DNA from: Betaproteobacteria bacterium RIFCSPLOWO2_02_FULL_63_19
GTDB lineage: Bacteria > Pseudomonadota > Gammaproteobacteria > Burkholderiales > SG8-39
Direction of reading: 5' to 3'
Assembly: GCA_001770415.1 (NCBI GenBank)
Contig: MEQX01000028.1
Coordinates: 62,001-126,000, forward strand
DNA: 64,000 nt
A program made the position numbers and the translations under genes. Numbering within the stretch: the first letter of the stretch is position 1; each line of letters starts with the position of its first letter. This document shows positions 15,935 through 41,252 of this stretch, in pieces. The notes under the pieces were generated by a model. That model had not been told where the DNA came from and searched no databases. It saw nothing but the letters and a program-made list of their open reading frames with translations.

Positions 15935-15994
15935 GTTTTCCTCTTCAACTGCGAACGCGGCGGGCGAAGCATCGGGGCAGAGAGCGTGGCTTCC

Positions 15995-17487: not shown

Positions 17488-17722
17488 CGCGGTTCTCCAT
17501 TCAGGTCTCCGTCTCGCGAGGCCGCTTCGGCATCACTGATCCACTCCCCGGCCGCAAGGTCTGGCCCCCCTTGGGTTTGTTGCGCGCATCTTCGGCAACG
17601 GCCTTCTGTGGTTCGGACGCAATATTTTTCGACCCGCAAGTATAAGGACCTGCCCCACGATTGCAAGTCCGGGGCGAGTCCGATGCTCACCAGACCCTGC
17701 CCATGGGAGAAAGTTCCCGAGG

Positions 17723-21056: not shown

Positions 21057-21194
21057 GGCGGTTCCAGATTATTCCGACCGGGACGATTTGGCGCGGGAGT
21101 GCGGCGGACTATTTGTCTTCGGCGCGCGCCAGAGCATTTGGCTTCGCAGCGCCCACCCGTTCGCAGGCGATCACACTGCGCCGACCCGACGCGC

Positions 21195-22400: not shown

Positions 22401-22533
22401 TGAACTCCTACCCAAATTCGTGGAACCGTAGCTTCCGACCTGCGGCCGTTCGAGGGCGTAAATATACCACCATGCGTTGCGCCAGCCTGTATTGCCTGCA
22501 ATGATGGCGCCTTGCCAAACGTAGGAGACATCG

Positions 22534-23283
22534 ATGTCCACTGATCCCGAATTCGATCGCCGTCAGCGCTACGACGCGCTCATGGACGTGGTCCGCGGCC
22601 GCATGACTACGCGCCAGTTTGACCCAAACTACGTAGTGCCGAAGGAGCACTACGAACTCATACTCGAGGCCGCTCGCCACGCGCCGTCAGGCGCGAACGC
22701 ACAGCCGTGGCACTATATCGTCGTCACCAAACCCGAGCTGAAGAAGGCGATCGCTGACTACTTCGTCGATGAGGCACGCGCCCGCGCCAAGCTTAGGATG
22801 AAATTCCCGACGCCCAATTACCGCGGCCTCGAGACCGCGCCTGGAATGATCGTCGTCGCGTCGGATTTTCGTTGGACGCGGGCTTTCCCAGTGCTTCTGG
22901 ACGACTCTGAACTCGACCGGAAGTATCGCGAGAACGCCGAACGTATCCTACTGCAGTCCGTCGCGGCCTCGACCATGTCGGCGCATCTCGCGGCAGCGGC
23001 TCTCGGGTACAACGTGTGGTGGGTGACGGCCATCGGCCAGGACGACGCGCAAAAAGCTCTCAAGCCGCTGCTCGGAGTACCGGAAGAAATCTCCGTCATC
23101 GACATCTTCTGTTTCGGTCCGGCTGCCAAGCCACCGTACAAGCGCTGGAAGAAGGAACTCCACCAGATCATGAATTGGGACCGCTTCGACATGGAAAACT
23201 ACATGAGTGTTGAGCAGATCGATGCCTGGATCAGGGAAAAACGTAGCCAAGTGATGTACCGTGACGAATCCAAAGTCGACTGA
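22534..23283 (+). CDS. Nitroreductase family protein
   Basis: A 249-residue FMN-dependent nitroreductase-fold protein. MTTRQFDPNYVVPKE and ARHAPSGANAQPWHYIVV (residues about 50-70) hold the usual FMN contacts; GLETAPGMIVVAS follows. The natural substrate is unknown. It runs opposite to the adjacent binding-protein gene with a 133-bp intergenic region between their starts. It is followed after 166 bp by fdxA, a possible electron source, though no direct link is shown. Confidence 0.88.
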   Translation: MSTDPEFDRRQRYDALMDVVRGRMTTRQFDPNYVVPKEHYELILEAARHAPSGANAQPWHYIVVTKPELKKAIADYFVDEARARAKLRMKFPTPNYRGLETAPGMIVVASDFRWTRAFPVLLDDSELDRKYRENAERILLQSVAASTMSAHLAAAALGYNVWWVTAIGQDDAQKALKPLLGVPEEISVIDIFCFGPAAKPPYKRWKKELHQIMNWDRFDMENYMSVEQIDAWIREKRSQVMYRDESKVD

Positions 23284-25085: not shown

Positions 25086-25174
25086 TGGTGCCCGGAGCCG
25101 GAATCGAACCGGCATGACCGGTTAAGGTCGAGGGATTTTAAGTCCCTTGTGTCTACCAGTTTCACCATCCGGGC
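25086..25174 (-). tRNA. tRNA-Leu(UAA)
   Basis: The minus strand folds as a class II tRNA with acceptor GCCCGGA/TCCGGGC, an encoded CCA end, a long variable arm (CGACCTTAACCGGTCATG) and the T-loop GGTTCGATTCC. The anticodon loop CTTAAAA gives TAA. Length is 89 nt with CCA. The gene stands alone, 10 bp from the amidohydrolase remnant. Confidence 0.96.
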
Positions 25175-25417: not shown

Positions 25418-26413
25418 ATGAACATGACGAAAGGCATGTGGCAACGGCTCGCACTGGGGGCGGCGGCCGCATTGTTGGCCGGCTCGGTCAACGCGCAGAC
25501 AGCGACGCTTGCAACGGATGCCGCGGGAACCACGTATAACGCAGTCGGTTCAGGAATGGCCAAGGTGATTACGGCCGGTTCGAAGCTGCGAGTGATCGTG
25601 CGGCCGTTCGGCGGGCCGGACGCCTACCTTGATCAGTTGAACAACAACGAATTGAATTTCGCAGCGCTTTCCGGTTCGACAGCCTACCTGTCCTATAACG
25701 GCAAGAATCGAGCCAAGAAGGCATACAAGAATCTGCGCCTGCTGCGCTCGGGTGCGGGAGGCCTGAAAGTCGGCTTCATCGCCCTCAAGGATTCGAGCAT
25801 CACTAAGGTGAGCGACCTGAGAGGCAAGCGCGTCGCCAGCGACTACGGCGGCCACGCTGTGATCGGCCGCTCGATCGCCGCGGCACTCGCCAGCGCCGGT
25901 CTGACCTGGAAGGATGTCAAACCCGTTCCGGTGACCGGCGCCAACGACGGCGTCACGGCGCTCGACGCCGGTCGCGTTGACGCCTGTTGGGCGTCGCTCG
26001 GCCAGCCGGTGATCCGGCAATTGAACGCGGCAAAGGGGGTGCGCTATCTGAGTTTTGTGAAGACCGACCAGTCGCTTGCAATGCTGCGAAAGATGATCTT
26101 TCCCGGCGTCAAGCTGGAAACGGTGAAGAAGAATCCTTCAATAGGTGTCCAGGACGACATCTATATGATCACGTATGACGCGTACATGGTGACGAACAAG
26201 GACGTGCCGGACGCTGTCGTCGGTCAGGCGCTCGAGGGCTTGTGGGCCAAGACCGACGAACTGGTCAAGATCCACCGCGGTCTGAGCGGGTTTACACACG
26301 AATCCGCCGTGACGGAAATTCCCATGGTCCCCTATCACCCCGCCGCGATCGCGTTTTACAAAGCGAAGGGGCTCTGGACCAAAGAAGCTGAAATGGCGAA
26401 CAACAAATTCTAG
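25418..26413 (+). CDS. TAXI family TRAP transporter substrate-binding protein (first copy)
   Basis: A 331-residue periplasmic binding protein of the TAXI type (TRAP-associated extracytoplasmic immunogenic). It has a signal peptide of about 26 residues ending in NAQ, then TATLATDAAGTTYNAVGSG, the usual TAXI start. Ligands of studied members include glutamate and other small carboxylates; the ligand here is unknown. ATGAGGA precedes the ATG. The gene converges on a TRAP permease gene (26597-28543) that is probably its partner although on the other strand. Confidence 0.88.
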   Translation: MNMTKGMWQRLALGAAAALLAGSVNAQTATLATDAAGTTYNAVGSGMAKVITAGSKLRVIVRPFGGPDAYLDQLNNNELNFAALSGSTAYLSYNGKNRAKKAYKNLRLLRSGAGGLKVGFIALKDSSITKVSDLRGKRVASDYGGHAVIGRSIAAALASAGLTWKDVKPVPVTGANDGVTALDAGRVDACWASLGQPVIRQLNAAKGVRYLSFVKTDQSLAMLRKMIFPGVKLETVKKNPSIGVQDDIYMITYDAYMVTNKDVPDAVVGQALEGLWAKTDELVKIHRGLSGFTHESAVTEIPMVPYHPAAIAFYKAKGLWTKEAEMANNKF

Positions 26414-26452
26414 ACAGGCGACGGCGGCCGGACTGCCCGGACTGCCCTATAT

Positions 26453-26487
26453 GATCGAACCGGTCGGCGGTGCCGCCCGGTTCGATC
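26453..26487. terminator. Strong hairpin between convergent genes
   Basis: An 11-bp perfect stem (GATCGAACCGG/CCGGTTCGATC) continues after one mismatch as CGGC/GCCG with a GGT loop, so it is about 15 bp in all. It lies between the convergent TAXI and TRAP permease genes. There is no T-tract on either side, so it may be a bidirectional terminator of imperfect type or an mRNA 3' stabilising structure. Confidence 0.55.
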
Positions 26488-26596
26488 GTGCAGCCCCCCG
26501 CCAGAGTCTCTCTTTGCCGCCCGCCGCGGCCCCGGCGGCATCCGCGACACACGACGCGCGCAAGCTTTGAACCGGCGCCGCGCGCGCGTATTGACG

Positions 26597-28543
26597 CTAG
26601 GCGACTACCCCTCTGTGGCGCCATTCCCAAGTGCAGAGCGCCAATGCGGCGACCAGCGATACCCCGAGCAGAACGCCTGCAAATGCTCCGCCGAACGGCG
26701 TCAGCATCAACAGCAATCCAAGCGCGCCCATCGCTACGCGGGCGATCCCGTGTATCGGTCTGAACAAATAGCCCACCATGCCGATGGTCATGACCAAGAT
26801 GCCCAACGTCGTCTTGGCCGTGACCAGCACGATGCCGACCGCCGAACCGGCGAACACGAGTTCCGGTTGATAGACCATGATGAATGGAACCACGTACGCG
26901 ACAACGGCAAGCCGCATGCCCGACCAACCGGAGCGCCAGAAGTCTGCCTTGGCGATGCTGGCCGCGGCGAAAGTGGCAAAGCATACCGGCGGAGTGACCA
27001 TCGACATCAGGCCGAAATAGAACAGGAACAAATGCGCAGCGATGGGAACCACGCCCATCTTTTCCAGCGCTGGTGCGACCAGCACCGCCAGCATCACGTA
27101 AATGATGCCCGTCGGCATGCCCATGCCCAGGATGATGCAGATGACAGCCGTCATCAACAGCAAGACGAGCGTACTTTCTCCGGCAAACGAAATCAGCACC
27201 AGCGAGAAGTTGAAACTCAGCCCTGACACCTGCAGCGCACCAATGACGATGCCGGCAACCAATGTGATCACCACGAGGTCAAGGATGCTGCGGCCCGTTT
27301 CCTCGATCGCCGACAATAGGCCGCGAAAGCTGGGCCGCGTGCTCGGCTGTATCGGGGCAACGATCAGGGTCGCGATCACCCCCGCCATCGCCGCCCGGCC
27401 CGGTTGCCAGTTCTCGGCAAACAAGGTATAGATCAGCGCCCCTATCGGAATGACGAAAACGAGGCCACGCAAGCTTATACGTGAAAGTCGGGGAAGATCC
27501 TCACGGCGAAGGCCGGCAATTCCGAGCTTCGCCGCTTCAAGATCCACCTGGATGAACAGGGACACGTAGTACAGCACCGCCGGAATCACGGCCGCGAGAA
27601 CAACGTCGGCATACGGAACCGACATGAACTCCGCGATGAGAAATGCGGTGATGCCCATCACTGGCGGCATGATCTGGCCGCCGGTCGAAGCGACCGCCTC
27701 GATCCCGGCCGCCAGGTGGCCCGGATAACCGTTGCGCTTCATCATCGGAATGGTGATTGGGCCGTCCATCACCACATTTGAAACTGCGCTGCCTGAGATG
27801 GTCCCGAACAGACTCGATGCGATGACCGCGGTCTTTGCCGGACCGCCGCGGTAGCGACCCATGGTTGCCAGTGAAAAGTCGGTGAGAACCTTGTCGCCGT
27901 TGACGGCGTACAGCACGCGTCCGAACAATATGAAAGACACGATGATCGTCGTCGTTACCTGGATCGGCAGTCCGAGCATGCCATTACCATCCAGATACAG
28001 ATAAATCGCGAGGCGGCGCCAATCGGTGTCAGGGACATTCAGGACGCCTGGAAAGAGAGACGAGAACTTGGCATAGAAAATAAAGAGCAGTCCCAGTATG
28101 ACGAGGGTCCACCCCGTTGCTCTCCGCGTCGCTTCCAGGACCAGTACAACGGCGATGGCGCCGAGGATGTAGCGGTGCGTCACCAGCGAGCCAAGGTCAT
28201 AGACCAGATCGCGGTAGTTCACCAGCACATAACCACCTACGATCGCGCTGGCGACGGCGGCGACCCAGTCATACCATGGAACGCCAGCGCGCTGTTCCCC
28301 ACTACGGGCCTTGACGCGGATAAATACCCCAACGAGCGCAATGACGATCATTAGCGCCAGGTATTGCTCTTTGAATACCGCGAACGGCAAGTAGTGCTGC
28401 AATTCGAGGGCCCACGCGGCACCCAGCAGGGCCAGCGCAATGACCAGCGTGCGCTCGATAGCCGCCGGGAACGGCGTTAACGATCGATAGCGCGCGCTTG
28501 AATCGCCCGGTTCTGTTGTTTCAATGGCGTGCTCCGAAGACAT
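26597..28543 (-). CDS. TRAP transporter fused permease (DctQM type, first copy)
   Basis: A 648-residue integral membrane protein that joins the small (DctQ-like) and large (DctM-like) TRAP subunits, as is usual in TAXI systems. Conserved large-subunit motifs are SSLFGTISGSAVSNVVMDGPITIPMM and EAVASTGGQIMPPVMG in the middle, and GMGMPTGIIYVMLAVLVAPAL further on. I start at ATG 28543, preceded by AGGAGG; ATGs upstream (28570, 28597) lack a site. The gene converges on the first TAXI gene. Confidence 0.9.
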   Translation of the reverse strand: MSSEHAIETTEPGDSSARYRSLTPFPAAIERTLVIALALLGAAWALELQHYLPFAVFKEQYLALMIVIALVGVFIRVKARSGEQRAGVPWYDWVAAVASAIVGGYVLVNYRDLVYDLGSLVTHRYILGAIAVVLVLEATRRATGWTLVILGLLFIFYAKFSSLFPGVLNVPDTDWRRLAIYLYLDGNGMLGLPIQVTTTIIVSFILFGRVLYAVNGDKVLTDFSLATMGRYRGGPAKTAVIASSLFGTISGSAVSNVVMDGPITIPMMKRNGYPGHLAAGIEAVASTGGQIMPPVMGITAFLIAEFMSVPYADVVLAAVIPAVLYYVSLFIQVDLEAAKLGIAGLRREDLPRLSRISLRGLVFVIPIGALIYTLFAENWQPGRAAMAGVIATLIVAPIQPSTRPSFRGLLSAIEETGRSILDLVVITLVAGIVIGALQVSGLSFNFSLVLISFAGESTLVLLLMTAVICIILGMGMPTGIIYVMLAVLVAPALEKMGVVPIAAHLFLFYFGLMSMVTPPVCFATFAAASIAKADFWRSGWSGMRLAVVAYVVPFIMVYQPELVFAGSAVGIVLVTAKTTLGILVMTIGMVGYLFRPIHGIARVAMGALGLLLMLTPFGGAFAGVLLGVSLVAALALCTWEWRHRGVVA

Positions 28544-28856
28544 AGCGAATGCGCCTCCTCGCGTATTCATGCGACGTCGCGCAGTACCCTGCGGCATCTA
28601 CAAGGGCAGGAGTCTAAGGGAGATTCACGCCGGAGGGGCATGAATTTTCGCGGCTAAAAAGAGTGATCGGTCCGAAATCGCGGACCCTGGATGCGGCAGC
28701 ATCCTGGTCGATGTACGCGCGTGGATTTTGGTGTGTTCATGCGTGCAGTTTTGCGAAGTCCGGCTTCGCTTGACAGCGGGGGTTGCACCGCTCGCATGGT
28801 CTAGGCTACCGTACGTACTCCGCTCGAAAGGATGAGGCGGCGCTCCAGGGGGAGTC
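28544..28856. other. Divergent intergenic region
   Basis: This 313-bp region lies between the TRAP permease gene (minus) and the ABC ATPase gene (plus) and should carry both promoters. A TTGACA is present near 28768 on the plus strand, but I see no good -10 box at the right distance. No gene is apparent. Confidence 0.4.
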
Positions 28857-29651
28857 ATGACTGCGGGATACATCCAGGCGAAGAACGTCAATCTGACATT
28901 CACGCCGCCCAACCGGGCACCGGTTACTGCACTGCAGGAGTTCGACGTCGCGGTCGCCGAGCGCGAATTCGTATCCATCGTCGGACCCTCGGGCTGCGGC
29001 AAGAGTACTTTCCTCAACGTTCTTCTCGGACTCGTCAAGCCCGACTCGGGAGAAATGTCGATTCACGGCAAGCGGGTGGCCGGTCCGGGCCGCGACCGCG
29101 CGATGGTGTTTCAGGAATTCGGTCTCCTTCCGTGGCGTACGGTGGAAGATAACATCGGTCTGGGCCCGGAGTTGCAGGGCATTCCCAAAAAACAGCGACG
29201 CGAACGCGGCCGCCATTTTATCGACATGGTCGGACTCAGCGGGTTCGAGCACCATTTCCCGCACGAACTGTCCGGTGGCATGAAACAGCGGGTGGGCATC
29301 GCCCGGGCACTGGTGAGCGACCCGGATGTACTGCTGATGGACGAACCCTTCGCGGCGCTCGACGCCCAGACCCGCGACATCATGCAGGCGGAACTGCTGC
29401 GCATCTGGCAGGAGGCCAAGAAGACCGTCTTGTTCGTCACTCATCAGATCGAAGAGGCGGTATATCTGTCCGACCGTGTAATTATCATGACCAAGCGCCC
29501 GGGGCGCACCAAGTCAATCCTCAAGATACCGCTTGCTCGGCCACGCGGTTACGAAATGCGGGTGACACCCGAATTTAACGAACTCAAGCTGCGTATCTGG
29601 AACGAACTCAAGGACGAGATCGATTCCCAAGGCGGGCCGGTCCGGGATTAG
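28857..29651 (+). CDS. ABC transporter ATP-binding protein (TauB/SsuB/NrtD type)
   Basis: A 264-residue ABC ATPase of the nitrate/sulfonate/taurine group with Walker A GPSGCGKST (near residue 42), Q-loop MVFQEFGLLPW, signature LSGGMKQRVG and Walker B VLLMDEPFAALDAQT. Together with the two permeases downstream it forms an importer. The spacing to the first permease gene is 18 bp. The binding protein is probably the convergent gene at 31349-32362. The substrate is not known. Confidence 0.92.
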   Translation: MTAGYIQAKNVNLTFTPPNRAPVTALQEFDVAVAEREFVSIVGPSGCGKSTFLNVLLGLVKPDSGEMSIHGKRVAGPGRDRAMVFQEFGLLPWRTVEDNIGLGPELQGIPKKQRRERGRHFIDMVGLSGFEHHFPHELSGGMKQRVGIARALVSDPDVLLMDEPFAALDAQTRDIMQAELLRIWQEAKKTVLFVTHQIEEAVYLSDRVIIMTKRPGRTKSILKIPLARPRGYEMRVTPEFNELKLRIWNELKDEIDSQGGPVRD

Positions 29652-29669
29652 GCGGAACGGGCGAGGGAT

Positions 29670-30443
29670 ATGGATAAGTTCTTCGAAGACTGGCGCCGAC
29701 CGATCCTGGGATCGCTTGCCATTATCTGCTTCTTTCTCGCCTGGGAGGCCATCCTTACCTGGGGCATTCCGCTCAACAAATTCATCATATCGAAGCCGAG
29801 TCTCATTTTTGCCGGACTCTTCCAGGACATGAACAGCGGACTTCTCTGGCGGGATCTCCTGATCAGCGGACGGCCGCTTGTATTCGGCTACGTCGCCGCG
29901 GTTCTGGTGGGCATCCCACTGGGGGTGGTCATGGGCTGGCGGGTGCGCGTGGGCTACTCGCTGGACCCGCTGCTAACGGCGTTCTACGCCAGCCCGCTGG
30001 TCGCGGTCGCACCGCTGGTAATCATCTATTTCGGCGTCGGCGTGGCTGGCAAGGCGACCTTGATCTTCATCCTTTGCGTCTTTCCCTTCATCTTCAATTC
30101 TTTCGCCGGCGTGCGCTCGGTGGACCTGCTGTTGATCAATGCGGTGCGCTCCTTCGGCGGGCGAGAATGGGACCTCTACCGCATCGTCATCGTGCCCACT
30201 ATTCTTCCTTTCGTCGTCGCCGGCGCGCGCTTCGCCATCGGTCGCGGGTTGATCGCCGTATTAGTGGGCGAATTTTTCGCCGCCTCGGAAGGCGTCGGCT
30301 ATCGCATCGCTTTCTACAGTGACATGTACGTTCTTGACCGCATGTTCGGCTATATTCTGGTGATCATGGTGATCGCCGTGGCCTTCACCGAGGGCATCCG
30401 CTGGGCCGAGCGAACGGCGTTCCCTTGGCGTGTCGGCATGTGA
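29670..30443 (+). CDS. ABC transporter permease (TauC/SsuC type, first)
   Basis: A 257-residue BPD_transp_1 permease with about six membrane segments. The cytoplasmic coupling loop is seen as RSFGGREWDLYRIVIVPTILPFV (near residues 160-180), the EAA-like motif of this group. It is translated right after the ATPase gene and followed after 10 bp by a second permease gene, so the importer may use a heterodimeric channel. Confidence 0.9.
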   Translation: MDKFFEDWRRPILGSLAIICFFLAWEAILTWGIPLNKFIISKPSLIFAGLFQDMNSGLLWRDLLISGRPLVFGYVAAVLVGIPLGVVMGWRVRVGYSLDPLLTAFYASPLVAVAPLVIIYFGVGVAGKATLIFILCVFPFIFNSFAGVRSVDLLLINAVRSFGGREWDLYRIVIVPTILPFVVAGARFAIGRGLIAVLVGEFFAASEGVGYRIAFYSDMYVLDRMFGYILVIMVIAVAFTEGIRWAERTAFPWRVGM

Positions 30444-30453
30444 GGAAGCAGCC

Positions 30454-31290
30454 ATGTCCAACAGACACGCTAGCAATGAAACCACGGCTGTGACCCGGAA
30501 GACGTTCTGGGAGACGAACGAGCCGCTCATTCTCGGCGTCGGTTTTATTGTTCTGGTGATCGTCCTCTGGCAGATCGTGCCGTCATTCTTCACCATGTCG
30601 AAAGGGATGAAACTGTTTTTCGCCACGCCGACGATGGTATTCACCGCCATCGGTGATCTGATTGCCAGCGGCAAGCTCTGGCCCGCCTTGCGATTCAGCT
30701 CCAGCGCGTTCGCGGCCGGGCTCGCCCTGGCCATCGTCGCGGCCCTGCCACTTGGTGTGCTCATGGGGCGCTCGCGCCTGATGAACGAATTGTTCGACCC
30801 GTTCGTCACCGCCATAAACGCGACGCCGCGGCTGGTGTTCCTTCCGTTGATCATCATCTGGTTCGGGATCGGAATGACGTCGGTGATCGTCGTTGTCTTC
30901 ATCGGCGCGCTATTCCCGCTGCTGATCAACACCTACGAAGGCGTGAAGAACGCCGATCGGCTGTTGATCAACGTGGTCAGGTCCTACGGTGCCAGCGAGT
31001 GGGACATCAACAGGCTGGTGGTAATTCCCAATTCCCTGCCCTATATCATCTCCGGGCTGCGCCTCGCCATCGGGCGCGCCGTGCTGGGCGTGGTTGTCGC
31101 AGAGTTTTTCGGCGGCTCCGCCAAGGGTATCGGCGTGATCATGGTCCAGGCTTCGAGTTCCTTCCAGGTGGACCTGGTGTTCGCCGGACTGATCATTTTC
31201 ATGGCACTGTCGCTGGTCCTGACCGGCATCGTGCGCGCCATCGAGACTCGCTTCAATCGCTGGCGCCCCGAGAAAGCCAAGACCTTCTGA
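30454..31290 (+). CDS. ABC transporter permease (TauC/SsuC type, second)
   Basis: A 278-residue permease related to the gene before it, with the coupling loop RSYGASEWDINRLVVIPNSLPYI. I start at ATG 30454, preceded by GAGGAAG; an ATG at 30430 would overlap the previous gene but has no ribosome binding site. The operon ends at a strong hairpin terminator directly after the stop. Confidence 0.9.
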   Translation: MSNRHASNETTAVTRKTFWETNEPLILGVGFIVLVIVLWQIVPSFFTMSKGMKLFFATPTMVFTAIGDLIASGKLWPALRFSSSAFAAGLALAIVAALPLGVLMGRSRLMNELFDPFVTAINATPRLVFLPLIIIWFGIGMTSVIVVVFIGALFPLLINTYEGVKNADRLLINVVRSYGASEWDINRLVVIPNSLPYIISGLRLAIGRAVLGVVVAEFFGGSAKGIGVIMVQASSSFQVDLVFAGLIIFMALSLVLTGIVRAIETRFNRWRPEKAKTF

Positions 31291-31320
31291 AAAAAAGCCC
31301 GGGGCTGCCCGGGCTTTGAT
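31290..31320. terminator. Bidirectional intrinsic terminator
   Basis: A ten-bp perfect stem (AAAGCCCGGG/CCCGGGCTTT) with a four-base loop sits at 31294-31317. On the minus strand it is followed by seven T residues, a strong terminator for the binding-protein gene there were it read through from that side; on the plus strand the T-run is only within the stem. It separates the convergent permease and binding-protein genes. Confidence 0.85.
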
Positions 31321-31348
31321 TCCACAAATTACAGAGATTGCTCTGTGC

Positions 31349-32362
31349 TCAGCTCGCGCTCGGAGTCTTAATCGGCTGCATCTTGTAGCCGATTTCGTTC
31401 AAGGTTTCGGTCAGCAGATCGCGCGCAATGAATTTGCTCACGTCAGGCATCGGCTTGTCCTTGGGCCATAGACCGCGTTTCACCATTCCTCTGTAGCGAC
31501 CGACAAACAACTTTTTGAACAGGTCGGCGGGAAGATCCGGCGAATATTGGTCATGAATCTCGTTCCAGACGATTTCCGCTTGCTTGCGATCCTTGATGCC
31601 GAATTCCTTCATGATGACGTCCACCGAACCGTCCTTCTCGTCGCGAAAATATTGGATGGACCTGGCGATAGCACGGATGAACTTCTTCACGGTTTCCGGG
31701 TTCTTCTCGACGAACTCGGCCCGGGTCCAGATGCATCCGCCGACGCGCGGCAAATACTGCCCGGTCTTGAGGAGCATCTTGAACCCGACGGCCTGGGCGC
31801 GTGAGGCGGTGGGGAAGGACATGAGCGCCGCCGTGACGGTGCCGTTGATCAGCGCGGCGACACGGTCGGACTCCGCCTGGAAGCTGATCACCTTGTAATC
31901 CTTCCCCGCGACCATATCAAAGTGACGCCTGAGCACGATTTCGCCTTCATCGTAGTCGGCGCCGCCGGCGCGGCCGTAGGCGATAGTCTTGCCGCGCAGT
32001 TCCTTGACCGACTTGATCTTGGGATCGGTGATGATCGCCCATTGCGAAATCAACGATTCACCGACCACATACTTGAGATCCGCTCCCTGCAGCGAGGCCT
32101 GCGACCCGGCGCCCGGAACCGGCACAAAGTCGACATTGCCGGCGATTCCGGCAGTGGTCAGCGCCTTGGCAGTCATCTGCACCCGTTCGGCGTCCAGGCC
32201 TTCTTTCTTGAAGAACCCCTTGGCGAAGGCGACGTAGACGGGAATGTGAAAGCCAGACCCGCTGAGCGTCGTGCCCACTTTGACCTTCGTCTGCGCCTCG
32301 GCAGTGCCACCAACGGCGAATGCCGCAATCGCGGCGGCGGCCAACCATTTCATCATCGACAT
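31349..32362 (-). CDS. ABC transporter substrate-binding protein (NMT1/SsuA/TauA type)
   Basis: A 337-residue periplasmic binding protein with a signal peptide (about 1-23, ending AEA) and the NMT1/THI5-like fold (VGTTLSGSGFHIPVYVAFAKGFFKKEGLD near the N-terminus). Relatives bind sulfonates, nitrate/bicarbonate or thiamine precursors; the specificity is unknown. It is most probably the binding protein of the convergent importer at 28857-31290. Confidence 0.88.
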   Translation of the reverse strand: MSMMKWLAAAAIAAFAVGGTAEAQTKVKVGTTLSGSGFHIPVYVAFAKGFFKKEGLDAERVQMTAKALTTAGIAGNVDFVPVPGAGSQASLQGADLKYVVGESLISQWAIITDPKIKSVKELRGKTIAYGRAGGADYDEGEIVLRRHFDMVAGKDYKVISFQAESDRVAALINGTVTAALMSFPTASRAQAVGFKMLLKTGQYLPRVGGCIWTRAEFVEKNPETVKKFIRAIARSIQYFRDEKDGSVDVIMKEFGIKDRKQAEIVWNEIHDQYSPDLPADLFKKLFVGRYRGMVKRGLWPKDKPMPDVSKFIARDLLTETLNEIGYKMQPIKTPSAS

Positions 32363-32988
32363 GACTTAACCTCCTTCCCGAATTGAAAATGCATGGTTGA
32401 TTATTGCCTTCCCGTTGGGAGGGCTACCAACATACTAGCCTCGTTGGTGTTCAATGATAAAGCGAAATCTTTGCAAGGCGGGGCGCACGGGCCGGTCGAT
32501 TCAACGGTACTGCCGGTCGGTCGATCATATGGGGCAATACATGGGCGATTTCACGTGGATGATGCGTTCACCCTGCTGGGTGTACGCACAAAAAAGCGAT
32601 GGCCTCCCGCGACGAGGTCAGTGAAATTGGAGCCTGGGCGATACCTTCAACGACGGCGTTGACGACGTGGGTGAAGCCCACGGGCAAAGCGCATCTTGAA
32701 ACACAGCCGCAATGCGAATGTGTATCCTTTCGATTGAATTACAGAACAAATAGGTCCCAGGCGATTCTCGAATCTTCCGATTAGGCGCGCGCGATTTCGA
32801 GCACCGCGCGCGCTGGACGCGAAATGCGGTCATCGCACCCCTGGTCCTTCATGAATTGAGTGCCATTTCGGATTGCGCAGGATCGGAGCGAAGAGTACGC
32901 TCCGTGCAGTTCGCTCCGCCCGCGGAGAAATTGCGGTGCGACGGCAGGCTCGTCAGAACCTGCGACCATCTCATCAAGGAGAAGAGAC
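32363..32988. other. Long divergent intergenic region
   Basis: About 626 bp between the minus-strand binding protein and the plus-strand second TAXI gene. Short open frames exist but none has family likeness and a ribosome binding site. An inverted repeat of alternating G/C (32783-32812, GCGCGCG arms) is present. It should hold the promoters of both genes; I could not assign them. Confidence 0.4.
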
Positions 32989-33993
32989 ATGATACGAACC
33001 GAACAATTCAGACAGCTTGCATTCACGGCTGCATTGGTTTCAACGCTGGTCACAGGGAATTCCGCGCGCGCGCAGGAAGCCCTCAATTTCGGTACCGCGA
33101 GCGTCGGCAGCACCTATTATGTTCTCAGCATTGGCCTGTCCAAGCTGATCGGCAAGTACGCCGGCGTCAACGTGAACGTGCAGCCGGTAGGTGGCTCTTA
33201 CCCGAATCTGTTCGCCCTCGCCTCGAAGAAGGTCGACATCGTGATGGCGAATTCGCTGTCGCAGTACGACCGCTATTACGGCAACAAGCCGTTCAAGAAC
33301 CCCTACGAGATCCGCATGTTGGCACAGGGTATGCCCAACTACCGGGTGATCCTGGTGCGCCGCGGGGCGAACATCAAGAACGTCGCCGACCTGGTGGGCA
33401 AGACCATCATTGGCAAGAGGCGCGCCCTGCCTGAACTCGAAAAGATCACGTCGGCACTTTTGCGCGTACATGGCATTGCCCCGGACAAGGTCAATATCGT
33501 CGGCACGGTCAACACCGGCCAGGTCGACAAAGCGCTGCGGGCGGGCACGGTCGACGCCGCGGCGTATCCCTCGGCACGGCGCCAACCGTTGCTGACGGCG
33601 CTGTTCCAGGACGGAATTGTCGACTTCCTAGACCTGAGCCGGGAAAAGCGAAACGAAATGCTGAAGCTGTTGCCCGGTGCCTTCTACGAAGATGTCTTCA
33701 AGGCTGGCACTTTCCCCGACCAGAAAAAGGGCGCCTACGTCTTCGGACTGGCGACGTCCCTGGTGGCACGCGCGGATATGTCCGACGACCTGGCCTACAA
33801 GATTGTCAAGGCTACGCTCAGTCACACCGACGAGTTCGCCAAGTACCACGCGGCGGGCCGCCAGTGGACCGTCAAGCAGAGCCTGTCAAGTCCGAGTGTA
33901 CCGTTCCACAATGGCGCTATCCGTTACTACAAGGATGTCGGTGCCTGGACGCCGGCAATGGACGCGCTGCAGGCCAAGTTGTTGAAACGGTAA
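32989..33993 (+). CDS. TAXI family TRAP transporter substrate-binding protein (second copy)
   Basis: A 334-residue TAXI-type binding protein: a signal peptide of about 27 residues ending RAQ is followed by EALNFGTASVGSTYYVLSIG. I start at ATG 32989, preceded by AAGGAG; the open frame reaches 32860 without a site. The first TAXI protein in this window is clearly different in sequence, so the two systems probably take different solutes. The partner permease gene follows after 47 bp. Confidence 0.88.
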   Translation: MIRTEQFRQLAFTAALVSTLVTGNSARAQEALNFGTASVGSTYYVLSIGLSKLIGKYAGVNVNVQPVGGSYPNLFALASKKVDIVMANSLSQYDRYYGNKPFKNPYEIRMLAQGMPNYRVILVRRGANIKNVADLVGKTIIGKRRALPELEKITSALLRVHGIAPDKVNIVGTVNTGQVDKALRAGTVDAAAYPSARRQPLLTALFQDGIVDFLDLSREKRNEMLKLLPGAFYEDVFKAGTFPDQKKGAYVFGLATSLVARADMSDDLAYKIVKATLSHTDEFAKYHAAGRQWTVKQSLSSPSVPFHNGAIRYYKDVGAWTPAMDALQAKLLKR

Positions 33994-34040
33994 ACATAGG
34001 TTAGCCACTACACGCGCCCGCTGGTCCGGGCGCGCTTCGC

Positions 34041-35948
34041 ATGAGAAGCCTGAGCCCGATTACCTGGGTGGCGTCGGTCGTCGCCATATATCACCTCGCA
34101 GTCCTGAGCGAGATGCCGGCATTCTTGGGGTTCTTCCTTCCAAACGAAATCCATCTGGCGATCAGCATTTCCTGCGCGCTGCTGATCATCTTTACTTTGC
34201 GCCGGGCGGGTGTGGCTCATGACGCGGCTGCCGAAGACGTCGCCGCCGGCGCAAGGCGTGTGCCATGGTACGACATGCTGCTGATGGTTTCGGTAGTGGC
34301 CGGTGCCGGCTACGTACTCGCGTTCTTCGAGAAATACCACGACTACGGAATGTACGGGGAACTCGACGCGCTGGGCATCGTCGTAACCCTCTGCCTTGCG
34401 CTGCCACTGCTGGAAGGCATCCGGCGCACCACCGGCTGGGCGCTGCCGATCATCATCCTGACGTTCGTATTCGGAACAATCTTGCAGCGCTTCCTTCCAG
34501 GATTGCTGTATGGCAAAGGTTATCCTCTCGAGCGGCTGCTTTATAGCGCTTACGTCGGCGAGAGCGGCATTTTTGGGCTGCCGCTCAATGTGGCGGCCAA
34601 CATCGTCATCGTGTTCCTGATCTTCGGCGCGATCATGCAGGGTGCAGGCGCCGGCAAATGGTTCATTGACGTCGCGCTGGCGCTCACCGGCTGGAGTCGC
34701 GGCGGTCCGGCCAAGGCGGCGGTCCTTTCGAGTGCCCTGTTCGGTTCAATATCGGGCTCACCTTCGTCGAACGCGGCCACTACCGGGGTATTCACGATTC
34801 CGATGATGGTCAAGATCGGCTACCGACCCGCCTTCGCGGCGGCGGTCGAGGCGGTGGCGTCCACCGGCGGCCAGATCCTGCCCCCGGTCATGGGGTCCAT
34901 CGCCTTCGTCATGGCCGAATGGATCGAAGTATCCTACGCCGAGGTCGCGCTCGCGGCGCTGGTCCCCGCGCTGCTCTATTTCCTGATCGTCTTCGTATCG
35001 GTGCACCTGCAAGCGCACAAGGATGACGTCCCGGCGCTCGCACGCGCCGACCTTCCCCGCCTGGGGCCGGCAATGCGACAGGGCTGGCACTTCTTGCTGC
35101 CGATCGCGGTGCTGATCTGGATGCTGATTGTCGAGCGGTATCCCCCGGGAATGTCCGCCATGTATTCGTCGATAGTCGCCATCGGCGCAAGCTTCTTGTC
35201 GAATAACCGGGACAACTGGCTGACGCCGACGCGTATTCTCCTTTCGTTTGAGGACGGAGTCCGGCGCTGGGTCGTGGTGGCCGCGATTACGGGATCGGTC
35301 GGCATTATGATCGGCGCCCTCGAACTCTCGGGTGTCGGTATCAAACTCTCGTCGTTCATCGTCGACTTGTCCGCCGGCAACCTCTATCTCGCGCTGTTCC
35401 TGATTGGCGGCTCCAGTCTCATTGTCGGCATGGGGCTGGACGCCATTCCGGCCTATATCACTCTCGCGACGCTGATGGCGCCGGCGCTGGTCGATCTGGG
35501 GGTGCCGTTGATGGCGGCCCACCTGTTCGTCATCTACTGGGGTCTCGCGTCGTTCTATACGCCACCCATGTGCATCGTCGTCTACGTAACCATCGGCATC
35601 GCCGGCAGCAAAGTCTGGGACACCGGCTGGGAAGCCGTACGGATCGGGATTGCCGCTTTCCTGATTCCGTTTGCCTTCGCGATCAATCCGGGACTGCTGC
35701 TCCAGGGCGGCATCGATAAGATTGCACTGGCGACGGGCACAGCCGCCATCGGTGCCGTCCTCGTCGCCTGTGGCGTACGCGCCTTTCTTCTTCGCAATCT
35801 GAATGTCTTCGAAAGCCTGGTGATATTCGCTGCCGGGGTATTGCTGATCCTCCCGGGCGTCAAACTGCCGCTTGTCGGACTGGCAATCACCGCGGCTATG
35901 GTGATCATGCAGGTTATTCAATCACGCGTCTTGAGGAGACGCGGTTGA
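34041..35948 (+). CDS. TRAP transporter fused permease (DctQM type, second copy)
   Basis: A 635-residue membrane protein of the fused TRAP type with motifs parallel to the first copy: SSALFGSISGSPSSNAATTG and EAVASTGGQILPPVMGS in the middle and VGMGLDAIPAYITLATLMAPAL further on. It probably forms a complex with the TAXI protein encoded just upstream and uses a sodium or proton gradient. A stretch of 192 bp without a visible gene separates it from the thiamine-diphosphate enzyme genes. Confidence 0.9.
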   Translation: MRSLSPITWVASVVAIYHLAVLSEMPAFLGFFLPNEIHLAISISCALLIIFTLRRAGVAHDAAAEDVAAGARRVPWYDMLLMVSVVAGAGYVLAFFEKYHDYGMYGELDALGIVVTLCLALPLLEGIRRTTGWALPIIILTFVFGTILQRFLPGLLYGKGYPLERLLYSAYVGESGIFGLPLNVAANIVIVFLIFGAIMQGAGAGKWFIDVALALTGWSRGGPAKAAVLSSALFGSISGSPSSNAATTGVFTIPMMVKIGYRPAFAAAVEAVASTGGQILPPVMGSIAFVMAEWIEVSYAEVALAALVPALLYFLIVFVSVHLQAHKDDVPALARADLPRLGPAMRQGWHFLLPIAVLIWMLIVERYPPGMSAMYSSIVAIGASFLSNNRDNWLTPTRILLSFEDGVRRWVVVAAITGSVGIMIGALELSGVGIKLSSFIVDLSAGNLYLALFLIGGSSLIVGMGLDAIPAYITLATLMAPALVDLGVPLMAAHLFVIYWGLASFYTPPMCIVVYVTIGIAGSKVWDTGWEAVRIGIAAFLIPFAFAINPGLLLQGGIDKIALATGTAAIGAVLVACGVRAFLLRNLNVFESLVIFAAGVLLILPGVKLPLVGLAITAAMVIMQVIQSRVLRRRG

Positions 35949-36140
35949 GCATTCGAGGGCGTTTGCGATGTCCACAGCGGACAGCAATGCATCGTTGCAT
36001 TCGGAATTCGCCTCCCGCTTTCAGAAGCAAGTGGTAGGCTGCCGATCTCTTGCGGTGCGATTGGTTCGGGATGCGGCGACTTCACTCAGCTTTGCATTCC
36101 ACGGCGGCCGGCGCGAGGCGTCACGACATTGGAGACGAGC

Positions 36141-37832
36141 TTGAAGAGTTACCAGGACGGCGGCGAAGCGATTCTCGAGGCAATCCGCAATCTCGGCATT
36201 GAATACATCATGTCCTCCCCCGGATCGGAATGGAGTCCGGTGTGGGAAGCAATGGCCCGGCAGACGGATTCGGGCGCAGCGGGGCCGCAGTTCATCGAGT
36301 GCTGGCACGAAAACGTGGCGGTCGACATGGCCATCGGATATACCGCCGTTACCGGTCGGCCGCAGGCCGTGCTCGTGCACGCCGGCGTTGGTCTGATGCA
36401 TGGTGCGATGGCGGTACTTTCGGCGTCCCAAGGGGAGATTCCGATGCTCCTCATGTCGGGCGAGTCGACCAGCTTCGGCGCCGATCCGTCTCGACAAACC
36501 GAAGCACAATGGTACGGCGGTGTCAGCGTCGGCGGCGCGGACCGCTATATCGGCCCGTTGGTCAAATGGTCGCGCCACGTTTCGCATCCGTCGGTAATCT
36601 ACGAAAGCGTCACACGTGCCGGCGAAATGGCCGAACGCCAGCCGAAGGGCCCGGTCTACCTCAATGTTTCGCTCGAGGCCATGCTGCACCCCTGGACGAG
36701 ACCTGAGCTGCCGCGCCGCATCCGCCCGGCGCCGAAATTGCAGCCATTGTCCGAGGACATAGCCGAAATCGGGGTTTTGCTCGCAAACGCCCAGCGACCG
36801 TTGATCGTTACCGAAACCGCCGGCCGCGATGTGGCGGCGTTCGATGCGATGATCGAGTTGGCACAGCGCTACGCGATCCCAGTTATCAACGGTCGGGCCA
36901 GCCACTACACCAATTTCCCCAAAGATCATCCGATGTGGCTCGGCTACACGGACTTCGGGCAACTCGAAGATTCCGATCTGATCCTGATCGTCAACGGCCG
37001 CACCCCATGGTATCCGCCGTGGAAGCGTCCGGGGGTCGGTCACATCGTCGCGATCAGCGAGTACCCGCTGAAGGACCGGCTGGCATACCAGTGCCTGCAC
37101 GCCGATCGCTATCTCGAGGGCGATGTGGCGACTTCTCTCAGCCTGCTTGCCGGGGCTGCCGCCTCGGCGGACAAGGCGACGGTCGCCAAGCGCCGCGCAT
37201 ACTGGGCCGGTGAACACGATGCGCTGATGGCGCGTTTGAAGGCCGCCGGTGAAAAGGCGCTGGCCGGGTCCGGCATCGACGCCGTAGCGCTTGCCCGCGT
37301 CGCGGCAGAGGAACTACCTGACAATACCATCGTCGTCGACGAAACGATTACGCACATGCAACTGATGCGCCCGCATCTTCCGCTTAATCGCGCACAGAGT
37401 TTCTTTCGCGTCGCGGCCGGAGCCTTGGGCCAGGGCATGGGGTGCGCGCTGGGCGTCAAGCTCGCTGCCCGCAAACAGCCGGTCGTGCTGTTCGTCGGCG
37501 ATGGCTCGTTCATGTATAACCCGATCGTGCAGTCGCTCGGCGCCTCCAACGCGTACCAGCTTCCGATTCTGATCGTCGTGTGCAATAACGGCGGGTATGA
37601 AGCCATGCGCAAAGGTCACTTACTTCATTATCCGGGCGGCGTGTCCGATACCAAGGAACTCTATTACGGCGTCAACCTCGACGGGCCCGAGTATCACGAA
37701 CTCGGATCGCCATTCGGTTGTTTCGGTGCCAAAGCGGGCGATCTGAACGCTTTGCGCAGAGGTTTCAGGGACGCATTGGCGGCCGTCGAAAGTGGACGAT
37801 CGGCGATTGTGAACGTCGTAATGACCCAATAG
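36141..37832 (+). CDS. Thiamine-diphosphate-dependent enzyme (acetolactate synthase superfamily), first
   Basis: A protein of about 563 residues with the three-domain layout of POX/AHAS-type ThDP enzymes. The N-terminal Pyr domain has the catalytic Glu in CWHENVAVDMA (about Glu57); a central domain follows. The C-terminal PP domain holds the cofactor/magnesium motif from GDGSF (about 453) to NNG (about 483). I start at TTG 36141, six bases after GGAG; a TTG at 36129 has no site. No FAD or regulatory-subunit gene is nearby, so a decarboxylase or lyase is as likely as acetolactate synthase. Substrate unknown. Confidence 0.85.
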   Translation: MKSYQDGGEAILEAIRNLGIEYIMSSPGSEWSPVWEAMARQTDSGAAGPQFIECWHENVAVDMAIGYTAVTGRPQAVLVHAGVGLMHGAMAVLSASQGEIPMLLMSGESTSFGADPSRQTEAQWYGGVSVGGADRYIGPLVKWSRHVSHPSVIYESVTRAGEMAERQPKGPVYLNVSLEAMLHPWTRPELPRRIRPAPKLQPLSEDIAEIGVLLANAQRPLIVTETAGRDVAAFDAMIELAQRYAIPVINGRASHYTNFPKDHPMWLGYTDFGQLEDSDLILIVNGRTPWYPPWKRPGVGHIVAISEYPLKDRLAYQCLHADRYLEGDVATSLSLLAGAAASADKATVAKRRAYWAGEHDALMARLKAAGEKALAGSGIDAVALARVAAEELPDNTIVVDETITHMQLMRPHLPLNRAQSFFRVAAGALGQGMGCALGVKLAARKQPVVLFVGDGSFMYNPIVQSLGASNAYQLPILIVVCNNGGYEAMRKGHLLHYPGGVSDTKELYYGVNLDGPEYHELGSPFGCFGAKAGDLNALRRGFRDALAAVESGRSAIVNVVMTQ

Positions 37833-38071
37833 CTGCACACGGGCATGTCCGTTCGAACCGGCTGTGAAATTCGAACGGCCCCTGGCGCGCCGGAATCCAG
37901 CGCATGACTTCGCTGCTGCCGCACACCGAATCTTGTGTTACTTTCGCAAAGATTTTTGATCGACCAACATGCGCAAGCAGCCCAGCTGACCGGCCGAACC
38001 CATTTCTCGGCGGGGGGCAATAAGGGTCAGCGCCGCTGTTGCCGTGTTTGTTTTGTAAACGAGGAAAGGGA

Positions 38072-39832
38072 ATGAGCAAACCACAAGTCAAACCAAACAA
38101 CGCTATAGGCCGCGAAGAGCCGCAGGGTCCGCTTGCCACCCGCGCCGGCTTCGGCAGCGATATCGTCGCCGAAACACTTAATGCGCTCGAGCTGCCGTAC
38201 ATCGCCCTCAATCCGGGTGCAAGCTATCGTGGACTCCACGACAGCATCGTGAATTATCTGGGCAACAGACAGCCCCAGATGCTGCTATGTCTGCATGAAG
38301 AGCACGCAATACATATTGCCCAGGGCTATGCCAAGGTCACCGGCAAGCCGATGGCCGCCGCCGTTCATTCAAATGTCGGGCTGATGCACGCGTCGATGGC
38401 AATCTTCAATGCCTGGTGCGATCGCATGCCCATGGTCATCATGGGAGCCACCGGCCCGGTCGACGCAGCGGTGCGCCGTCCATGGATTGACTGGATCCAT
38501 ACCTCGCGCGATCAAGCCTCGATGATCCGGCACTATGTAAAGTTCGATGACCTGCCGGGTTCCCCTGCAGCGGCGCGCGAGGCGCTCACGCGGGCAAAAT
38601 GGATCGCGGAAACCGCGCCGAAGGGACCGGTCTACATCAATCTCGACGTGACGCTGCAGGAATCGCCACTAAAAGCCGATCTGCCGCCGTTCGACATCAG
38701 CCGTTTTGCACCCGAAATACAGGTCGGCCCGACGCCGCAACAAGTCGATGCAATTGCGAAACTAGTACGGGAGGCGAAGAAACCACTCGTATTGTATGGC
38801 CGGCTTTCCCGTTCGGAAAAAGGGTGGGCCGAACGCATCGTGCTCGCCGAAAAGCTGGGGGCCGGTGTCCTGACGGATCTCAAAGTCGGCGGCAGCTTTC
38901 CCACGGACCATCCGCTTCATGTTGGCGCACCCCGAATGGGACCTGACAAGGCGGTGCAGGATGCGGTTGAAGGCGCCGATCTGATACTTGCCTTTGACGT
39001 TGTCGACCTTGGCGGGCTGTTCAAGGTCAGTCTCGGCGGTAAGCCGCCGGCCGCCAAGGTAATTCATGTTTCGATGGATCACCGGATTCACAACGGCTGG
39101 ACGATGGATCATCAGATCCTTCCTCCTGTCGATTATTTTGTTTCCGCCGATCCCGATGCCGTCGTTTCGGCGCTCGTCGGCGCCCTTGGCGACCTGAAGG
39201 CAAAGGCACCAAGACCGCGTCAACAAGAAGCGCAGGAAATTCGCCCGCCCGGTGAGCGTCCGCTGGTGCGGGATTTGGCCTTGTCGTTGCACAAGTCGCT
39301 GGGCAAGCGTGATGTATGCCTCCTTTCCACGACCATCGCCTGGCACGAAGACTGGTGGCCCATTCGCCACCCGCTGGATTACGTCGGCGGCGCAGGTGGC
39401 GGCGGGCTAGCGGCCGGTCCGGGCATTTCAGTTGGCGGTGCGCTGGCGCTTAAGGGCACCGACCGCATGGCGGTCGGCATTATCGGAGACGGCGACTTCT
39501 TGATGGGCGCTACATCCGTCTGGACTGCTGTACGCTACAAATTGCCGCTGCTGATTGTCGTGGGAAACAATTCTTCCTTCTATAACGACGAATTGCACCA
39601 AGAACGAGTCGCCAAGGGGCGTAGTCGGCCCGTCGAAAATAAATGGATCGGTCAGAAAATGATCGAGCCGGACGTCAACCTCGCCAAGATTGCCGAAGGA
39701 CAGGGTGCCGTCGGAATAGGCCCAATCAATACGATCGGCGAATTGGCCGATGCGTTTGCCAAGGCCATCGCAGTGGTCGAGGCTGGCGGAGTCGCCGTCG
39801 TTGATGTGCGCGTCGTTCCCGGATATGCCTGA
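38072..39832 (+). CDS. Thiamine-diphosphate-dependent enzyme (acetolactate synthase superfamily), second
   Basis: A 586-residue relative of the preceding enzyme. The Pyr-domain motif is CLHEEHAIHIA (about Glu76); the PP-domain motif runs from GDGDF (about 472) to GNNSS (about 500). ATG 38072 has GAGGAAAGGG just upstream; the open frame from 38039 lacks one. Conservation with the first enzyme is limited, so they are not a recent duplication. Side by side in an island of uptake systems, they could act in one pathway or as a heteromer. Substrate unknown. Confidence 0.85.
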   Translation: MSKPQVKPNNAIGREEPQGPLATRAGFGSDIVAETLNALELPYIALNPGASYRGLHDSIVNYLGNRQPQMLLCLHEEHAIHIAQGYAKVTGKPMAAAVHSNVGLMHASMAIFNAWCDRMPMVIMGATGPVDAAVRRPWIDWIHTSRDQASMIRHYVKFDDLPGSPAAAREALTRAKWIAETAPKGPVYINLDVTLQESPLKADLPPFDISRFAPEIQVGPTPQQVDAIAKLVREAKKPLVLYGRLSRSEKGWAERIVLAEKLGAGVLTDLKVGGSFPTDHPLHVGAPRMGPDKAVQDAVEGADLILAFDVVDLGGLFKVSLGGKPPAAKVIHVSMDHRIHNGWTMDHQILPPVDYFVSADPDAVVSALVGALGDLKAKAPRPRQQEAQEIRPPGERPLVRDLALSLHKSLGKRDVCLLSTTIAWHEDWWPIRHPLDYVGGAGGGGLAAGPGISVGGALALKGTDRMAVGIIGDGDFLMGATSVWTAVRYKLPLLIVVGNNSSFYNDELHQERVAKGRSRPVENKWIGQKMIEPDVNLAKIAEGQGAVGIGPINTIGELADAFAKAIAVVEAGGVAVVDVRVVPGYA

Positions 39833-40436: not shown

Positions 40437-41252
40437 TCAAGCGCCGAGCGCTGAAACCTTGGACGCCGCCCGCTTGGTGTCTTGATGGGCCGGAAGCGAT
40501 ACAGCCAACAACGCTTTCGCGGTGGTCGCCGGCTGAGCTTCACCCATGGAGCCGGCTACATGCCTGAGCCCCGGCGCATTCAGAATCCGAATGTACTTCT
40601 GCATGACGGCGACAAGATTGTCCCGGTGGAACTGTGAAAGCACCCGGCTGACGGTTTCGAGCTGAATTCCGAGAAAACTGCCGATATCCTCGCGGTTCAT
40701 GCGCAGAATGAATTCGGACGCCGAATAGCCTCTCTCTTCGAAGCGGCGCGACAGAGTGAGCAGAAAAGCCGCCACGCGCTCACCCGCTCGAGCTCCCCCG
40801 AGAAGCATCTTGACCGCCTGATGACGCACCATTTCGCGGCCCATAACCCGGTGAAACTGGTGCTGTAGCCCGCGCACCTCGCGCGATATCGCCTCCAATC
40901 TGACAAACGGGATAACACAAACCACGCTATCCTCCAAAGCAACCGCATTGCAGCTATAACGATCCGTGCCGATGCCATCCATGCCCAAGACATCGCCCGA
41001 CATAAGAAAATCGATCACTTGCTGGCGACCATCTTCGAGGGCCACCTCTTTCTTGAAAGAACCGCTTCGGATCGAGTAAATCGCACCGAATTGGTCCCCC
41101 GCCCTGTACAGTTCTTCGCCGCGGCAGAGTTTGCGACGGGCATATACGAGTTGGTCGAGACGCTTGAGGTCATCGGCCGACAGATCCGTCGGTATGCATA
41201 ACTCGTGCAGCCCGCAGTTCGAACAAGACGACAATGGCTGAGTCATATTCAT
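40437..41252 (-). CDS. fnr: FNR-type oxygen-sensing transcription regulator
   Basis: A Crp/Fnr-family protein of 271 residues. The N-terminal cysteines 10, 13 and 19 (CSNCGLHELC) and Cys112 (DSVVCVIPF) match the four ligands of the oxygen-labile 4Fe-4S cluster of FNR. The recognition helix has ETVSR, the FNR form that reads TTGAT-N4-ATCAA. A tail of about 30 residues after the HTH region is longer than in E. coli FNR. It should activate genes under low oxygen. It is 36 bp after the conserved hypothetical gene. Confidence 0.92.
   Translation of the reverse strand: MNMTQPLSSCSNCGLHELCIPTDLSADDLKRLDQLVYARRKLCRGEELYRAGDQFGAIYSIRSGSFKKEVALEDGRQQVIDFLMSGDVLGMDGIGTDRYSCNAVALEDSVVCVIPFVRLEAISREVRGLQHQFHRVMGREMVRHQAVKMLLGGARAGERVAAFLLTLSRRFEERGYSASEFILRMNREDIGSFLGIQLETVSRVLSQFHRDNLVAVMQKYIRILNAPGLRHVAGSMGEAQPATTAKALLAVSLPAHQDTKRAASKVSALGA

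Follow-up and report, generated by a model that had tools for sequence, protein, structure and literature searches.

Few TAXI-TRAP importers have known substrates. For phthalates, uptake through MFS, TTT, ABC and TAXI-TRAP systems has been described (PMC13040137). In the bzf cluster of Pseudomonas sp. LLC-1, genes for a benzoylformate decarboxylase (BFDC), a BenK-like MFS protein, a benzaldehyde dehydrogenase and an OprD porin lie beside van genes, and the strain does not begin with an oxidation of mandelate (PMC7760541). Here we describe an island at positions 25418 to 39832 of a 64,000-nucleotide stretch of contig MEQX01000028.1 (positions 62,001 to 126,000, forward strand; hereafter the window) from Betaproteobacteria bacterium RIFCSPLOWO2_02_FULL_63_19. 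Domain searches identify ten genes in this interval, namely two TAXI/TRAP pairs, one ABC importer and two unlike thiamine diphosphate (ThDP) enzymes, ThDP_A and ThDP_B (A and B for short). We tentatively favour, at somewhat less than even chances and from sequence evidence, a function in which aromatic 2-oxo or 2-hydroxy acids would be taken up and decarboxylated by B. The island thus probably brings together, in a combination not seen before, the parts of an aromatic-acid pathway of a known type.

Relatives of ThDP_B and their neighbouring transporters

A tblastn search located B-type genes on 41 plasmid records, at less than 60% identity; 20 of these regions were opened, of which 18 were annotated. 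In 8 of the 20 records, the B-type gene has a TAXI gene (TIGR02122 search) no more than 10 kb away, versus 1.97 expected under random placement of the B-type gene along its own record (permutation p 5e-5). After removal of a near-duplicate Salipiger record, the count is 7 of 19 versus 1.76 expected (p 3.5e-4). Other neighbours were counted raw, without background control: an aldehyde dehydrogenase gene is found within 10 kb in 17 of the 18 annotated loci (adjacent in 8, within two genes in 12), a 2-hydroxy acid oxidase in 5, a Rieske protein in 10, a PDR/VanB reductase in 9, and pca or gentisate ring-cleavage-pathway genes in 5. ThDP enzymes of this type mostly carry the annotation "thiamine pyrophosphate-binding protein". 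Four of the annotated loci (L116, L119, L120 and L136) also have a nadC-annotated gene, for quinolinate phosphoribosyltransferase, next to or near the B-type gene.

Phylogenetic analysis groups the window B with plasmid enzymes. The 72-row tree, from which three ThDP reads of the genome carrying the window (the home genome) were omitted for poor frame or length, along with one truncated B, separates A-type and B-type rows into two clades (100/100 each). In this tree, the window B joins four alphaproteobacterial enzymes encoded on Antarctobacter pSMS3-3, Novosphingobium pCAR3, Pacificitalea pDY25-E and Agrobacterium pAt2 (99/97) and falls outside a 17-row clade of its own family and order; the other home-genome B-type copies (contigs C50, C40 and C102) are placed elsewhere. 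A 32-row tree places pAt2 as sister to the window B (98/90), with the five-row clade at 93/94, not starred, and joining the window B to ten resident rows is rejected (p-AU 0.0116). Transfer between lineages would be the simplest reading of this placement.

All four plasmid members of the clade have an aldehyde dehydrogenase gene adjacent to or two genes away from the ThDP gene; a class II aldolase-type gene is found in three of them, TAXI-TRAP genes in two and ABC genes in one. On pAt2, genes for a class II aldolase, an aldehyde dehydrogenase, the ThDP enzyme, an ABC ATPase, two permeases, two receptors and a flavin adenine dinucleotide (FAD) monooxygenase follow one another on one strand. This monooxygenase aligns with the 3-hydroxybenzoate hydroxylase 2dkh (E 4.3e-284) along 638 of 642 aa and is assigned by NCBIfam to a phenol 2-monooxygenase subfamily. 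The pSMS3-3 locus reads aldehyde dehydrogenase, ThDP enzyme, class II aldolase, TRAP and TAXI, followed past two regulators by a gentisate 1,2-dioxygenase and a 3-hydroxybenzoate 6-monooxygenase, both above cut-off. The class II aldolase-type protein has Mlr6791 (2z7b) as its nearest PDB relative, which we take to be a pyridine-dicarboxylate decarboxylase. Altogether, the gene content of these clusters fits a route from 2-oxo acid to aldehyde, benzoate and ring cleavage, in outline like the bzf and mdl pathways (PMC7760541). The context of the nearest relatives of B points to aromatic acids as candidate substrates, which the preliminary description of the locus had not proposed.

Receptor linkage was also sought in the home genome and 60 relatives. 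At a threshold of E 1e-80, B-type enzymes were identified in 20 of these 61 genomes, the home genome included, and A-type enzymes in 12. A receptor gene directly adjoins the B-type gene in 15 of 25 loci, and receptors make up 18 of the 47 adjacent genes but 20 of the 209 genes at least four positions away (Fisher p 6e-6), a value that is only a guide because the loci are not independent (L100 and L107 are close, as are L105 and L106). The 13 A-type loci, likewise not independent, show no enrichment, with receptors at 5 of 25 adjacent and 15 of 89 distant genes (p 0.77). The receptor class used in these counts consists of four BLAST clusters, two checked via window members, one via a single Pfam-scanned member and the fourth, DctP-like, assigned by context only. 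Combinations of ABC importer, TAXI-TRAP system and B-type gene recur on home contig C40 and in one relative (G012:C107), and ABC importers accompany B-type genes in G028:C442, Agrobacterium pAt2 and Rhizobium WYJ-E13.

These results bear on the earlier proposal that the island imports organic acids and converts them through one or both ThDP enzymes. The proposal is strengthened for B, whose relatives adjoin solute-binding proteins and show TAXI linkage on plasmids above permutation, and gains nothing for A. Neighbourhood conservation was the check suggested with that proposal, and B-type enzymes do recur with such transporters, so that the outcome named as refuting it, enzymes never accompanied by them, did not arise. 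A search of the 60 relatives, which left out the TAXI1 and TAXI2 receptors, turned up no copy of the island as a set.

In one relative (G014:C213), A- and B-type genes lie 6.2 kb apart, and the locus also encodes TctC receptors, two class II aldolases and one each of a dienelactone hydrolase and an MFS protein; among plasmids, A has one weak match. Seven Chloroflexota assemblies (L025-L031) encode an A-type enzyme 46% identical to ThDP_A, and the called gene preceding it belongs to one BLAST cluster (c10), whose one scanned member is an MFS protein.

Genes and layout of the island

All ten genes of the preliminary description are present with the domains it assigned to them. The left edge of the island is marked by a tRNA-Leu (TAA) gene (25086..25174, - strand), a common site for inserted DNA. 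No direct repeat of at least 20 nt ties this edge to the right edge, and GC content and base composition are even. TAXI1 (25418..26413, +), a TAXI-family TRAP receptor of 331 aa (TIGR02122, PF16868), adjoins in convergent orientation TRAP1 (26597..28543, -), a fused TRAP permease of 648 aa (TIGR02123) whose start was set by the coding-score caller, an earlier frame having begun at 28597. The ABC importer comprises an ATPase of 264 aa (28857..29651, +; PF00005), two PF00528 (BPD_transp_1) permeases (29670..30443, +, and 30454..31290, +, the latter with an inferred ATG start within an earlier GTG frame at 30430) and an NMT1/SsuA-like substrate-binding protein (31349..32362, -; PF09084, 68.1 bits) convergent to its permeases. 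Because of these convergent orientations, the pairing of TAXI1 with TRAP1 and that of the ABC receptor with its permeases are only likely.

The right half is a single co-directional block. It consists of TAXI2 (32989..33993, +; TIGR02122), a receptor with a signal-peptide-like N-terminus and an inferred start (earlier frame 32860), its partner TRAP2 (34041..35948, +; TIGR02123), also a fused permease and adjoining on the same strand, ThDP_A (36129..37832, +), whose nearest NCBIfam model is PRK08327, and ThDP_B (38072..39832, +; 586 aa), a BFDC-like ThDP enzyme. For B, the ATG at 38072, preceded by AGGAAAGG, is more likely the start than the TTG at 38039. The interval is free of transcription regulators, as noted in the preliminary description, but the next called gene to its right encodes a Crp-family regulator (40437-41252, -). 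Promoter and terminator scans gave no signals above shuffled sequence. Elsewhere in the window (12897-22541), ABC-2 type transporter genes and genes for DUF4340 and ABC_transp_aux proteins adjoin a branched-chain amino-acid type ABC importer.

Both TAXI receptors pass the TIGR02122 cut-off of 84.35 (TAXI1 141.7 bits, TAXI2 168.1 bits), and both permeases the TIGR02123 cut-off of 320.65 (TRAP1 594, TRAP2 566.2). The best matches among the 60 relatives are 48% identical for TRAP1 and 59%, in one relative, for TRAP2; the ABC receptor has no match there at 1e-40. Five TAXI2/TRAP2-like pairs were found elsewhere, four in the home genome and one in the relative G001. In the home genome, the neighbours of such pairs include a UbiD decarboxylase on C15, an amidohydrolase-2 decarboxylase-like gene on C63 and, on C26, genes resembling carboxyltransferases. 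TAXI-TRAP pairs are co-directional with UbiD at L127:5500-9982 and L180:5571-9998, and at L126:7035-10994 with an amidohydrolase-2 gene related to gamma-resorcylate and 5-carboxyvanillate decarboxylases. A module of transporter and decarboxylase was considered as a general rule and dropped: the home genome has 33 UbiD-family decarboxylase matches above cut-off alongside 28 TAXI-type TRAP permeases, and about one UbiD gene beside a TAXI-TRAP system would be expected by chance (an estimate), with two seen. The home genome looks like that of a carboxylic- or aromatic-acid specialist. Its assembly measures 4.65 Mb in 116 contigs, with no 16S rRNA gene found in it, and has 18 stretches matching ThDP_B.

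A and B are 27% identical, which agrees with the earlier view of them as unlike enzymes. Both pass the Pfam cut-offs with their N and C ThDP domains, although in A the central one is 0.1 bit under its own, and both have the three-domain ThDP architecture, judged from sequence domains, with the catalytic Glu (Glu47) and the GDG...NN motif intact. Aligned to 4q9d, B carries the His70 of BFDC, and A has a His there too. His70 is found in all aligned B-type rows, and the catalytic Glu in all except L094 and L109, which have Asp-Glu there. His70 and Ser26 are active-site residues of BFDC. Every named ThDP model leaves A and B below its cut-off. With PRK08327 (NF006203; function not named), A reaches 379.1 and B 229 for a cut-off of 456, and another ThDP enzyme of the home genome 673.9. 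The acetolactate synthase model TIGR00118 (cut-off 538.35) gives the two only 97.9 and 123.3, and, in keeping with the preliminary description, no acetolactate synthase small subunit is linked among the island genes. Predicted structures of B and A, made from nine sequences, have pLDDT values of 57 and 66.5 and are too weak for use.

Proposed aromatic-acid uptake and competing explanations

Based on these elements, the block from TAXI2 to ThDP_B would form a module that transports and decarboxylates aromatic 2-oxo acids, and the ABC importer and TAXI1/TRAP1 would be additional uptake systems beside it. The periplasmic ligand of TAXI2 would be a (hydroxy)aryl 2-oxo or 2-hydroxy acid and TRAP2, judging from its family, would bring the acid into the cell. 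ThDP_B would then take CO2 off the 2-oxo acid and give an aryl aldehyde, an activity suggested by its active-site residues and by the clusters in which its nearest relatives are encoded. Oxidation of the aldehyde to a (hydroxy)benzoate would fall to an aldehyde dehydrogenase from another part of the genome. A candidate on contig C16, unlinked to the island, is 57% identical to the enzyme of pAt2 and has an intact 494-residue frame, the flagged internal stop of which appears to be the frame's own stop; hydantoinase and Rieske genes lie nearby. The home genome also has two full-length matches to flavin mononucleotide (FMN) 2-hydroxy acid dehydrogenases outside the island.

A more specific version of this proposal seems improbable to us. 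In it, the clade of ThDP_B would consist of decarboxylases, not recognised before, for meta-hydroxyaryl 2-oxo acids. Natural substrates could be, for example, 3-hydroxybenzoylformate or a related ring-carboxylated acid, each served by interchangeable TAXI-TRAP, TTT and ABC importers, and the class II aldolase-type protein encoded near three of the four plasmid members would be an aromatic decarboxylase working alongside the ThDP enzyme. It is suggested by the clusters of two members ending in different enzymes that consume 3-hydroxybenzoate, a MobA-like hydroxylase on pAt2 and the 3-hydroxybenzoate 6-monooxygenase with gentisate dioxygenase on pSMS3-3.

Several observations weigh against uptake and decarboxylation of aromatic acids as the function of the island. 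No aldehyde dehydrogenase, oxidase or ring-cleavage gene is among its genes, TRAP2, A and B are separated by intergenic gaps of 180 nt (before A) and 239 nt (before B), and its importers show no close similarity to the transporters that accompany B-type enzymes on plasmids. Other ThDP enzymes of the home genome share His70, which consequently is not specific. Ser26 of BFDC is Ala in B and Ser in A, and B lacks a His in the His281 stretch, as does 4q9d. The BFDC model PRK07092 has a cut-off of 493, with A at 184.5 and B at 149.6. Among 26 B-type loci of the home genome, family and order, an aldehyde dehydrogenase lies within 10 kb in only one and an FMN 2-hydroxy acid oxidase in none. As the resident loci nearly lack aldehyde dehydrogenases, the aromatic reading rests on the plasmid clade and not on the resident copies. 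Finally, the home genome encodes 28 full-length TAXI-type fused permeases (selected rows of at least 218 bits; a split copy on C110 and weaker DctM matches were excluded), so that an importer near any given gene is not rare and a claim of linkage needs evidence from outside.

This abundance of permeases also feeds the main rival, accretion, in which three independent uptake systems and two independent enzymes, each with its own substrate, would have come to lie side by side at the tRNA-Leu gene. We regard accretion as possible but rather doubtful. Two TAXI-TRAP systems are packed together on C63, C50 and C24 as well, and TAXI-TRAP neighbours in the home genome are diverse, with no Pfam family matching more than four (88 of 100 listed neighbours scanned); the mixed gene orientations and the absence of the set from the 60 relatives point the same way. 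However, the recurrence of ABC importer, TAXI-TRAP system and B-type gene on C40 and in G012:C107 argues against chance assembly, as does the TAXI linkage on named plasmids above permutation, and three of the four home-genome B-type genes lie within 10 kb of a fused permease for an expectation of about 0.14 each. Another explanation, which we find unlikely, is that the substrates of ThDP_B, and of A, are aliphatic or CoA-linked and undergo a decarboxylase, lyase or carboligase reaction, the aromatic genes by the plasmid relatives being incidental or derived. The B-type genes of the same family would suit it, since their neighbours are genes for TctC receptors, MFS proteins, dienelactone hydrolases and class II aldolases and very rarely for an aldehyde dehydrogenase, as would the failure of every named ThDP model to reach its cut-off. 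B itself, however, falls outside the resident clade, and its four plasmid relatives all have aldehyde dehydrogenases, two of them with 3-hydroxybenzoate hydroxylases nearby.

Sulfonated acids, entertained in the preliminary description, fare worst. A module pairing their uptake with Xsc-like or sulfopyruvate-decarboxylase-like conversion would make use of an ABC importer that is, by family, of the nitrate/taurine/sulfonate type. Nevertheless, no NCBIfam taurine, sulfonate or nitrate importer model is above cut-off for it, the nearest for the ATPase being SaoA and TauB (TauB 246.8 versus a cut-off of 357), the receptor reaches 75.3 with SsuA_fam for a cut-off of 163.5, and the ThDP enzymes score only 103.7 and 110.2 with the Xsc model TIGR03457, whose cut-off is 676.4. 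No sulfonate-metabolism annotation was seen in the 18 annotated plasmid neighbourhoods of B-type genes. Sulfonate chemistry is accordingly rejected for the island on model scores, and we consider such a module highly improbable.

Comparison with known systems

In the limited collection of literature consulted, no description of a link between this ThDP clade and TAXI receptors was recognised. As the link is supported by permutation and found amid aromatic-pathway genes, it yields concrete candidate ligands and substrates, namely hydroxylated and methoxylated benzoylformates and mandelates. The island resembles the bzf cluster in the adjoining of a ThDP decarboxylase of the BFDC kind and an importer for the acid. 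It differs in relying on receptor-dependent TAXI-TRAP and ABC importers instead of an MFS protein and a porin, in the distance of its ThDP enzyme from BFDC by model score, and in that no aldehyde dehydrogenase is linked to it.

The apparent operon on pAt2 of Agrobacterium tumefaciens cl001 encodes the sister of ThDP_B, with 58% identity across 580 aligned columns, and its ABC importer belongs broadly to the type found in the island. Unlike pAt2, the island has no aldolase, aldehyde dehydrogenase or hydroxylase; the ABC receptors are dissimilar (no match at 1e-5), and the island has two TAXI-TRAP systems whereas pAt2 has no TAXI match. Clusters on Roseobacter-type plasmids (Phaeobacter pP75_b, Salipiger pTPRO7, Thioclava pLX02, Sulfitobacter and Roseivivax) resemble the island in that genes for a TAXI receptor and a fused TRAP permease lie no more than 10 kb from the B-type gene. 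They add genes for aldehyde dehydrogenase and for Rieske and VanB-type oxygenases, with pca genes in three of the five, and encode transporters that are not closely similar to the island's own. Additionally, the o-phthalate TAXI-TRAP importer of denitrifying bacteria, likened here by its published description (PMC13040137), has another substrate and other enzymes, and shares with the island the adjoining of TAXI-TRAP genes and genes of aromatic-acid catabolism, which for the island would be those of the predicted decarboxylase module.

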